From Georgenia sp. SYP-B2076 (lineage in GTDB: Bacteria; Actinomycetota; Actinomycetes; Actinomycetales; Actinomycetaceae), in NCBI RefSeq assembly GCF_003991205.1, contig NZ_RXOZ01000035.1:124001-188000 (forward strand): a stretch of DNA of 64,000 nucleotides, in the 5' to 3' direction. A model generated the notes under the pieces. It had not been told where the DNA came from. It did not search any database and saw only the letters and a list, made by a program, of their open reading frames with translations. Below are positions 40,435 through 42,968 of the stretch, in pieces. Numbering within the stretch: the first letter of the stretch is position 1; each line of letters opens with the position of its first letter. The position numbers and the translations under genes were made by a program.

Positions 40435-40475
40435 CCGCGACCGGCCGGGGGTGGCGACGTGGCCGGCCGTGGCGG

Positions 40476-40630
40476 GTGAGGCAGCGCGCCGTGAGGCCGG
40501 CGGTGAGGCGGCGCGCCGTGAGGCCGGCGGTGAGGCGGCGCGCCGTGAGGCCGGCGGTGAGGCGGCGCGCCGTGAGGCCGGCGGTGAGGCGGCGCGCCGT
40601 GAGGCCGGCGGTGAGGCGGCGCGCCGTGAG
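40476..40630. repeat. 27-bp minisatellite, about 5.7 copies
   Basis: A nearly perfect array of GTGAGGCGGCGCGCCGTGAG + GCCGGCG (27 bp) starts at 40476 and repeats at 40503, 40530, 40557, 40584 and 40611. Because 27 is a multiple of three, all six frames stay open, producing false reading frames such as GGEAARREA on one strand and TARRLTAGL on the other. It fills the gap between the acetyltransferase and the small CxxxxC gene. Confidence 0.93.
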
Positions 40631-40711
40631 GCAGCGCGCGGCCGGCGCCAGGATCCCGCCATCCCCCGGCACAAGGTAAACGGTCTCCCGTCGCGGGCCG
40701 AGCGCCCTGCG

Positions 40712-40939
40712 CTAGATGGCCGTCAGGTGAGGTCCTGCCGCCGCGCCGCCGTATCCCGTGACGGGCACGTAGCAAACTCCGTCGGCGCAGTAGCCGGCGT
40801 CGGCACCCCCGAGGGTCTCGAGCGAGGTGCCAATCGCCTCGAGCGACGTGCCGAAGCTCTCGAGCGACGTGCCCAACTCGCGCGACGCCGGGAGGCCGAG
40901 CCCCGCAACGGGCGCACCCGAAGGCGTGGTCGCGCTCAT
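40712..40939 (-). CDS. Small heptad-repeat/CxxxxC protein coupled to a DsbA-like gene
   Basis: This 75-residue reading frame starts within the stop of the upstream DsbA-family gene (ATGA overlap), which is the main evidence that it is translated. Residues about 21-43 are three 7-residue repeats (LGTSLES, FGTSLEA, IGTSLET), encoded by diverged 21-bp units. They are followed by GGADAGYCADGVCYVPVTGY, with two Cys four residues apart. There is no signal peptide. I do not recognise the family. It may be a substrate or partner of the oxidoreductase, a small metal-binding protein, or a peptide precursor. Each of these is inference. Confidence 0.6.
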   Translation of the reverse strand: MSATTPSGAPVAGLGLPASRELGTSLESFGTSLEAIGTSLETLGGADAGYCADGVCYVPVTGYGGAAAGPHLTAI

Positions 40940-41688
40940 CGCGCGGTCTCCGGCTGCGCCGTCTCCGGCTGCGCCGTCTCCGCCTGGGCGCTCCCGGCGC
41001 TTCCCGGCTGCGGCGCCTCGGCGGTTCCCGGCTGCGCCGCCTCGGCGGCCATGTCCGCGCGGGCGCGGCGCAGCGCCTCGCCGAAGATCTCGGGGCTCTG
41101 GGCGCCGGAGACGCCGTACTTCTCGCCGATGATGTAGAACGGCACGCCCTGGATGCCGATCTGCTGCGCCGCGGCGATGTCTGCCTGGACGGCCCCGGCG
41201 TAAGTGCCCTCGCGCAGCGCCCGGCCCACCTCGTCGGCGTCGAGGCCGGCCTCGACGGCCACCTCAACGAGGTCCTCGTCGTGGCCGACGTGCCTGCCCT
41301 GCTCGAAGTAGGCGGAGAAGAGCTTCTCCATGAGCTCGAGCTGCAGGCCCTTCGCCTTGGCGAGGTGGAGCACCTGGTGGGCCTTGAGGGTCTTGGTGTG
41401 CTTCACGCTGTCGAAGTCGTACGCGAGGCCCTCGCCGGCGGCCAGCTGCGTCATCTGGCCGAGCATCTGCGCCACCTGCTCCTTGGCCATGCCCTTGTGG
41501 CCGGCGAGGAAGTCGACCTCGCTGCCCTCGAAGTCGACGGGGGTGTCGGGGGCGAGCTCGAAGGAGTGATACTCCAGGGTCACCTCGCCGTCGAAGTCCG
41601 CCGCGGCCTTCTCGAACCGGCGCTTGCCGATGAAGCACCAGGGGCAGGCGATATCGGACCACACGTGCACGTTGATGGGTTCAGTCAT
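40936..41688 (-). CDS. DsbA-family (FrnE-like) oxidoreductase
   Basis: The 250-residue protein is a cytoplasmic DsbA-fold enzyme of the FrnE type: VWSDIACPWCFIGKRRFEKA with the CPWC active site at residues 15-18, a helical insert, and the cis-Pro loop IGIQGVPFYIIGEKYGVSGA. FrnE proteins act in disulfide exchange or as 2-hydroxychromene-carboxylate isomerase relatives. The tail after about residue 210 is Ala/Gln/Pro/Glu-rich with repeats such as AQPETAQPETAR. The start is ATG 41688 rather than an upstream one at 41703. The next gene is a 75-residue protein with a CxxxxC motif overlapping its stop. Confidence 0.92.
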   Translation of the reverse strand: MTEPINVHVWSDIACPWCFIGKRRFEKAAADFDGEVTLEYHSFELAPDTPVDFEGSEVDFLAGHKGMAKEQVAQMLGQMTQLAAGEGLAYDFDSVKHTKTLKAHQVLHLAKAKGLQLELMEKLFSAYFEQGRHVGHDEDLVEVAVEAGLDADEVGRALREGTYAGAVQADIAAAQQIGIQGVPFYIIGEKYGVSGAQSPEIFGEALRRARADMAAEAAQPGTAEAPQPGSAGSAQAETAQPETAQPETAR

Positions 41689-41828: not shown

Positions 41829-42125
41829 ATGACCTTCTGCTCGCACCTCGACACCATCGACCACGGCGTCACCGCAGACGGCGCCCCGGGGTGCGTGGAC
41901 TGCCTGGCGATGGGCGGGCAGTGGCTGCACCTGCGCGCCTGCCAGCAGTGCGGCCACATCGGTTGCTGCGACTCGTCGCCGAACCGGCACGCCCGCGTCC
42001 ACAGCCACGACGTCGGTCACCCCGTGGTCCGCTCCTACGAGCCCGGGGAGGCCTGGTACTACTGCTTCCCCGAGGACGTCACCTTCGAGCTCGACGGCGC
42101 ACCACCCGCGCCGTCGCACGCGTGA
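41829..42125 (+). CDS. UBP-type zinc-finger protein
   Basis: This 98-residue protein is a single UBP (ZnF-UBP) domain: FCSHLDTIDHGVTADG, CVDCLAMG, LRACQQCGHIGCCDSSPNRH and then HARVHSHDVGHPVV hold the Cys/His ligands in the usual order, and GEAWYYCFPEDVTFEL ends it. Such one-domain proteins are common in actinobacteria and their ligand is unknown, since there is no ubiquitin. It sits 3 bases upstream of a DsbA-domain gene and probably shares its transcript. Confidence 0.9.
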   Translation: MTFCSHLDTIDHGVTADGAPGCVDCLAMGGQWLHLRACQQCGHIGCCDSSPNRHARVHSHDVGHPVVRSYEPGEAWYYCFPEDVTFELDGAPPAPSHA

Positions 42126-42128
42126 GCC

Positions 42129-42968
42129 ATGTCCGACGGCACGGAGCGACGCCCGATGGCGCGCGCCGACGCGGACGCGGCAGAGGCCCCGGACCAGGTC
42201 GAGGTGCTCGCCGAGGGGGACGGCGACGCGGGGCGGCACGTGGAGGAGGCGCGCGAGTTCCCCGAGCACGGCGTCTCCGCGGAGGCATGGGACGTGTGCG
42301 AGCCGCCGGCGCCCGGGGCGCTCTTCGCGACGGGCGAGCGTGGGCGCGAGCCGGGGGAGCGACCGACGCCGCACCAGCCCGCGGTCCCGGTCCGCCACCT
42401 CCGGGGCAACCCCGATGCTGCGGTGACCGTCGTCGAGTACGGCGACTTCGAGTGCCCCTACTGCGCGGCGGCCGCGCCGGTCCTGCATGAGGTCGTCGAC
42501 GGCTCGGACGGCGGCGTCCGGCTCGAGTTTCGCAACTTCCCGCTCGCGCAGGTCCATCCTTACGCGCTCACCGCGGCGCTCGCCGCCGAGGCGGTCAGCC
42601 CGTACGGGGTGTTCTGGGAGATGCACGACCTGCTCTTCACCCATCAGGACCGCCTGCGCGACGTCGACCTGCGCAGCTACGCCGAGTCCCTCGGCGTCGA
42701 CGGCGACGCTGTGGTCGGCGACCGGGCCCAGGTCTTCGGTGACCGGGTCGAGGCCGACTTCGCCTCCGGCGTCGAGCTGGGGGTGCGGGGGACGCCGTGG
42801 TTGTTCGTGAACGGCGAGCACTACCTCGGTCGCATGGAGGTCGCGGCGCTGCGCCAGGCCACCTCGGCAGCCCTCGCCCCGCGCCGCGTCGGCGGTCTCC
42901 GTCCCCGCGGGGACTCACCGCCCCGGCGCCGGCTCGTACCACGGCCGTGGGGGCAGCGTCGGGACTGA
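42129..42968 (+). CDS. Stand-alone DsbA/thioredoxin-domain protein (NhaA-associated type)
   Basis: The 279-residue protein has a poorly conserved acidic lead (about 1-95) and then a DsbA-type domain: VTVVEYGDFECPYCAAAAPV with CPYC, the helical part GVFWEMHDLLFTHQDRLRDV, and the cis-Pro loop GVRGTPWLFVNGEHYLG. In many actinobacteria this exact domain is fused to the C-terminus of the Na+/H+ antiporter NhaA. Here it is separate and its 3' end overlaps nhaA on the other strand by 54 bases, so the last 18 or so residues (PRRRLVPRPWGQRRD) are shaped by antisense coding. It has no signal peptide. Confidence 0.87.
   Translation: MSDGTERRPMARADADAAEAPDQVEVLAEGDGDAGRHVEEAREFPEHGVSAEAWDVCEPPAPGALFATGERGREPGERPTPHQPAVPVRHLRGNPDAAVTVVEYGDFECPYCAAAAPVLHEVVDGSDGGVRLEFRNFPLAQVHPYALTAALAAEAVSPYGVFWEMHDLLFTHQDRLRDVDLRSYAESLGVDGDAVVGDRAQVFGDRVEADFASGVELGVRGTPWLFVNGEHYLGRMEVAALRQATSAALAPRRVGGLRPRGDSPPRRRLVPRPWGQRRD

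Follow-up and report, generated by a model that had tools for sequence, protein, structure and literature searches.

A separately encoded homologue of the CX4C tail of FrnE and its putative role as a redox partner in actinobacteria

A microprotein of 75 residues, encoded on the minus strand at positions 40712 to 40939 of the window (the whole 64,000-nucleotide stretch of Georgenia DNA analyzed here), is, as judged from profile matches, homologous to the C-terminal CX4C tail of the oxidoreductase FrnE of Deinococcus radiodurans (drFrnE), but is encoded apart from the enzyme. This assignment rests on the recurrence of homologues in this position at 80 of 172 FrnE loci and on the match of a family profile to the drFrnE tail. 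We put the probability at about 0.75 that the separate tail acts in trans as a dithiol arm regenerating the CPWC site of the enzyme. The chemistry of such a tail is already known; what is new is a drFrnE-type arm as a gene product of its own, and no description of a separate FrnE tail protein or of a split FrnE was found in the open-licence literature searched.

A review (PMC8945050) describes drFrnE with a CXXC motif at residues 22-25 and a CXXXXC motif at residues 239-244. Every crystal structure places the tail of one molecule at the active site of a neighboring one, and an intermolecular Cys244-Cys22 disulfide was reported with DTT. According to the same review, the tail helps to regenerate the CXXC motif, with tail mutants showing a partial loss of TrxR-driven activity, and is dispensable for insulin reduction with DTT. 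FrnE proteins lacking the CX4C motif are also mentioned there, namely those of the frenolicin cluster of S. roseofulvus and of D. maricopensis. The sequence-only reading of this locus knew of no described system of this kind, which has to be corrected because the Cys pair of the microprotein is homologous to the drFrnE tail described in this review.

The frnE gene and the overlapping microprotein gene

The gene preceding the microprotein frame (40936-41688, minus strand) encodes a FrnE-type oxidoreductase of the DsbA family with 250 residues. It matches the Pfam model DSBA (PF01323) with an E-value of 3e-44, contains the CPxC active site and has Deinococcus FrnE as its best match among PDB sequences (E 2e-52), in agreement with its earlier description as FrnE-like. 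The active site CPWC occupies residues 15-18 (41635-41646, minus strand) and is present in 79 of the 80 split loci, that is, those with a separate microprotein frame. No Cys follows CPWC in the window enzyme, whose C-terminus reads ETAQPETAQPETAR, and CXXC and CX4C are thus not found together in one chain. It shares this build, a CPxC enzyme without a tail of its own, with the S. roseofulvus and D. maricopensis proteins named in the review.

A fused relative from Jonesia (L097), 59% identical to the window FrnE, was modeled with AlphaFold as a stand-in for the window protein and gave a mean pLDDT of 93. A fold search with this Jonesia model, not with the window protein, returned 5coh and 5cnw on top, with TM-scores by query of 0.88 and 0.87. 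The fused Jonesia tail appears mobile, its last blocks having pLDDT values of 54-55, and AlphaFold placed neither this tail nor the window microprotein.

The microprotein, with the translation MSATTPSGAPVAGLGLPASRELGTSLESFGTSLEAIGTSLETLGGADAGYCADGVCYVPVTGYGGAAAGPHLTAI, begins inside the stop codon of frnE, as had been claimed from the letters alone: the TGA stop and the ATG start share the tetranucleotide ATGA at 40936-40939 (minus strand). Alignments A1 and A4, together with column counts, delimit a conserved core at residues 40-59, LETLGGADAGYCADGVCYVP (40763-40822, minus strand), within which the cysteine pair C51-ADGV-C56 (40772-40789, minus strand) aligns with C239 and C244 of drFrnE. The linker ahead of it contains three GTSLE heptads (residues 23-43; 40811-40873, minus strand), a local 21-bp duplication that Tandem Repeats Finder detected in the window as an array at 40817-40873. 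The three LGTSLES-like repeats of the sequence-only reading are therefore present, but a conserved helix formed by them is not supported, since the repeat is particular to the window microprotein (1 of 80 split loci) and the AlphaFold helix at residues 26-37 is of low confidence (block pLDDT 59-66). A conserved coiled coil formed by the heptads was rejected on the same count. The AlphaFold model of the microprotein is weak overall (mean pLDDT 61), with a short hairpin at residues 50-57 that holds the Cys pair (block pLDDT 79).

Standard searches with this sequence returned little. No Pfam model scored over its cut-off (best DUF6944, E 0.11), nor did any NCBIfam model; a single-sequence database search retrieved the protein itself only, and a direct search found it in 3 of 99 genomes, its own included. 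The family becomes visible only when all frames are read past the FrnE stop or when a profile is used; profile A1 matched 63 database proteins, the window's own among them, none of which is functionally named.

Several further features lie around the pair. A 27-bp tandem repeat with 5.9 copies and 99% match is located at 40475-40632, directly downstream of the microprotein gene. On the other side, a zf-UBP zinc-finger gene (41829-42122, plus strand) stands divergently beside frnE, and a similar frame, judged by eye, occupies the corresponding position in another Georgenia (L007:333-629, minus strand). Directly past the zf-UBP gene lies a second gene of the DsbA/Thioredoxin_4 type (42129-42965, plus strand), which is faced by a Na+/H+ antiporter gene (PF06965). 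A plasmid search matched the frnE part alone, in 5 records listed of 7.

Distribution, conservation and homology of the family

All frames were read past the FrnE stop in 172 distinct loci. These came from 80 named loci in one-genome-per-species records, from 49 places in 47 of 99 related genomes and from 47 new places in 296 genomes of the phylum. A locus was scored as split when a small ORF with C-x4/5-C began between -45 and +60 of the FrnE stop, a motif by which other Cys spacings may have been missed. The raw scan of 176 loci gave 90 split, 41 fused and 45 neither. On inspection by eye, five of the 90 split calls (L028, L087, L100, L166, L175) lacked the core motif and were moved to neither as chance frames, L144 was changed from split to fused (CX6C), and the start of L106 was reset. 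From 184 loci in total, L001-L008 (places fetched a second time, and two further DsbA genes from the genome of the window itself) and the duplicates L039-L042 were dropped, which left 172. The FrnE place in G267 was left out of the set, and L090 was counted as neither, though its microprotein sits behind an inserted gene.

The final count was 80 split, 42 fused, with CX4C to CX6C at the chain end, and 50 neither. Since the 80 named loci are the nearest relatives, they favor the split state; the less biased samples gave 16 split, 15 fused and 18 neither among the 49 loci of relatives, and 2 split, 26 fused and 19 neither among the 47 new loci of the phylum. The split arrangement was found in all nine Georgenia genomes searched (the own and eight others), one of which also encodes a distant tailless FrnE paralogue (L145). 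The sequence-only reading had staked its case on small frames with a Cys pair recurring after orthologous frnE genes, and in 80 of the 172 loci they do.

The microprotein start lies at exactly -4 in 76 of the 80 split loci despite the scan range of -45 to +60, which indicates that the small ORF is more than a chance frame. The other overlaps are those of L020, L048, L077 and L080, the last two in the +1 frame. ATGA or GTGA is found at the FrnE stop in 77/80 split loci, compared with 6/42 fused and 15/50 neither loci. A Shine-Dalgarno match of at least 5 bases was present in 24 of 75 split loci and 16 of 92 others, a weak difference.

Across actinobacteria the family core is approximately [ML]-[VL]-G-D-x-D-A-x-x-C-x-D-G-x-C-x-[VL]-P. 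Conservation is confined to some 18 residues surrounding CX4C, the linker is free to vary, and the microproteins range from 26 to 90 residues with a median of 50 (n = 79). In the 79 aligned cores, A stands at -3 from the first Cys in 60 and G at -7 in 54, and 62 of 76 cores have P at +3 from the second Cys; the invariance of the Cys pair itself in these 79 cores is by construction, because the pair was the scan criterion. Exactly two Cys are found in 78 of the 80 split FrnE proteins and in 76 of the 80 microproteins. In the split ORFs L061 and L071, the Cys-rich ends CCGGGCCS and CCGGGSCGV replace the usual core.

Substitution patterns indicate that the microprotein is a protein under purifying selection, and in its own frame only. 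Pooled over 15 groups of close relatives, dN/dS was 0.45, with group values from 0.17 to 1.14; only one group, Georgenia_B, exceeded 1 (1.14), on few changes. For the gap-free core, dN/dS was 0.41 in frame vs. 1.50 and 1.53 in the shifted frames (394 non-independent pairs). This selection, together with the survival of the gene after its relocation in Microbacterium (see below), makes it very improbable that the small ORF is a relic or neutral leftover of a lost tail, a view to which the several lineages with neither tail nor microprotein would otherwise lend some weight.

Profile A1 was built from 30 free-standing microproteins (the window's and 29 from 84 rows) and contains no fused protein. 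Searched against all PDB sequences, it placed the drFrnE tail on top (5cnw, residues 224-249, E 7.8e-6), followed by the tail of SCO1869 (3gl5, residues 216-239, E 6.4e-4) and, lower, by the drFrnE C239S mutant (5cp1, E 0.026), the next and unrelated match being at E 0.24. Over 347 genomes of the order, A1 likewise matched fused tails (L194, L196, L205, L206, L211). Profile A2, made of seven rows of unlinked copies, also had drFrnE on top of its PDB matches, at an E-value of only 0.15. The likeness can be read from the drFrnE tail, PLTMLGQDAPAEGCEDGQCAVP, and a Rhodococcus microprotein, MSGPLEMVGDDHGPVCEDGVCEVPP.

The enzyme drFrnE (DR_0659; PDB 5cnw, 5coh, 5co3, 5cp1, 5xwh) belongs to the same enzyme family and has a homologous CX4C tail, but its tail and enzyme form one chain, whereas the window encodes them in two overlapping genes. 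The same holds for the actinobacterial relative SCO1869 of Streptomyces coelicolor, whose tail (ACGPDGCAVP) matches the microprotein profile but is fused.

Displaced copies and evolutionary history

The best 30 A1 loci in the order sample of 347 genomes comprised 26 with FrnE and 4 without. The latter four belong to one genus, which encodes its FrnE elsewhere; the grouping of this FrnE (L022) with named Microbacterium FrnE proteins identifies the genus as Microbacterium. A search with A2 at E ≤ 1e-3 found the gene in 16 of 59 Microbacterium genomes, 5 of these 16 having supplied rows of the profile; another 13 of the 43 genomes without a match at this threshold showed weaker ones, up to 0.1. 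FrnE was absent from all 16 unlinked loci within about 1.5 kb on each side, but is encoded in 57 of the 59 genomes and, elsewhere in the genome, by 15 of the 16 carriers, the remaining genome being 44% complete. The main FrnE had neither a fused nor an adjacent core in any of 17 carriers (L022, L256-L266 and L268-L270, which are the 15, plus L271 and L272). The genome G709 additionally encodes a 41%-identical FrnE paralogue (L267) with its own ATGA-coupled microprotein.

The unlinked loci (L195, L198, L201, L222-L237) have DUF6328, MFS and sometimes CMD-family genes as neighbors. A DUF6328 gene was counted in 13 and an MFS gene in 14 of the 16, and their retention hints at partners of the microprotein besides FrnE. 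Among the Microbacterium FrnE proteins L256-L275, the 16 rows from carriers end in a VxRDxW-type helix (e.g., ENVLRDLWAKR), and the three non-carriers read end in QxxRQVW; the VxRDxW-type C-terminus possibly marks a FrnE subtype that accompanies the unlinked gene.

A different displacement was found in an Aeromicrobium MAG (L254:982-1701), where frnE is separated from the microprotein gene by a 165-residue gene without a Pfam match, whose stop overlaps the microprotein start by 8 bases. An A1 search of 13 further genomes with a neither-type FrnE yielded no match in 11, a weak match outside the core in one and a displaced copy in one. No A1 match was obtained in the five Gordonia and Actinotalea genomes, the sensitivity of A1 being limited, as it also missed the fused Jonesia protein. 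Many FrnE proteins of the same clade have neither a tail nor a detected microprotein, which speaks against the arm being strictly required.

FrnE proteins at least 50% identical to that of the window included 79 split, 2 fused and 15 neither, while those below 50% included 1 split, 40 fused and 35 neither. In a quick tree of the 172 FrnE proteins, 79 of the 80 split rows fell into one clade (SH-aLRT 97), together with 15 neither rows and one fused row (Jonesia), and fused rows prevailed outside it. A careful tree was calculated from 70 chosen rows (40 of the 80 split, 24 of the 42 fused and 6 of the 50 neither, L158 being left out); all fused rows fell on the same side of a branch with support 80/61, and Jonesia stood at the base of the split clade. 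As Jonesia stands inside the split clade in the quick tree and at its base in the careful tree, both a re-fusion and a later fission could account for it. The simplest reading, for which the support is moderate, is a single fission at the origin of the main split clade, with later losses and relocations and possibly a re-fusion. The divergent split loci L158 (G058; 32% identity, placement unsure) and L267 (G709; 41%) may represent separate fission events.

Proposed role of the microprotein

Flexible Cys pairs that ferry electrons to a buried active site, in many cases from one subunit to another, are familiar from the C-terminal arms of high-Mr thioredoxin reductases and the shuttle Cys pairs of Erv/ALR oxidases, which have folds unrelated to FrnE and keep the arm within the same polypeptide. 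For the split FrnE loci, we propose that translation of the microprotein would be coupled to that of frnE by re-initiation at ATGA or GTGA. The microprotein may then bind in the groove of FrnE, much as one drFrnE molecule receives the tail of another in crystals, and the Cys pair of the microprotein would exchange with CPWC and be re-reduced by a thioredoxin or mycothiol system. That the drFrnE tail already works between molecules makes its detachment plausible, and the unlinked and gene-separated copies argue for an action in trans. An exchange between the Cys pair and the oxidoreductase had been anticipated in the sequence-only reading, and the homology to the tail speaks in its favor. The redox partner is the best of the three roles considered there; nothing was found that points to a peptide precursor with its maturation enzyme.

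The microprotein could instead be a dedicated substrate or a signaling peptide, the disulfide of which is made or broken by FrnE. A free two-Cys peptide encoded beside an oxidoreductase is compatible with electrons flowing either way, and unlinked copies exist. We consider this unlikely in view of the homology to a tail that is reported to help regenerate the enzyme (PMC8945050).

Slightly less probable still is that the microprotein serves as a thiol ligand for Cd, Zn or Cu and is kept reduced by FrnE. The review describes the frnE mutant of D. radiodurans as cadmium-sensitive and the gene as cadmium-induced (PMC8945050), and a few variants, such as CCGGGCCS in L061, are richer in Cys. The usual limitation to two Cys in the microproteins and the match of the core to a redox tail for which this source reports a mixed disulfide speak against a metal ligand.

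A programmed -1 frameshift could join the two frames, in which case an ordinary FrnE with a tail would be produced, the small ORF being no more than its shifted end. In the 76 loci starting at -4, the small frame is indeed shifted by -1 against frnE, and fused homologues exist. However, none of the 80 split loci (and none of the 42 fused) has an X-XXY-YYZ heptamer within the final 45 nt, split loci but rarely fused ones retain a start codon where the two genes overlap, and the overlaps of L077 and L080 lie in the +1 frame. The gene is, moreover, unlinked in 16 Microbacterium genomes and stands behind an inserted gene in L254, two arrangements that a frameshift fusion cannot produce. Frameshift fusion was consequently rejected on the unlinked and gene-separated copies and the missing slippery heptamers, and we regard it as highly improbable.

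Beyond the trans-acting arm, we tentatively consider that this uncatalogued and widespread dithiol microprotein family might constitute a diffusible actinobacterial redox carrier, coupled to FrnE through the stop-start overlap and freed in Microbacterium, where it may serve other partners.

Taken together, an unnamed actinobacterial hypothetical protein becomes a testable redox partner and a family for gene callers to name. It offers a possible explanation of why many FrnE proteins are without the CX4C motif that helps drFrnE turn over, and raises the question of whether electrons can be carried specifically by a peptide of 26-90 residues. The natural series of fused, overlapping, spaced and unlinked arrangements would allow both this and the working of a protein arm as a separate molecule to be studied.
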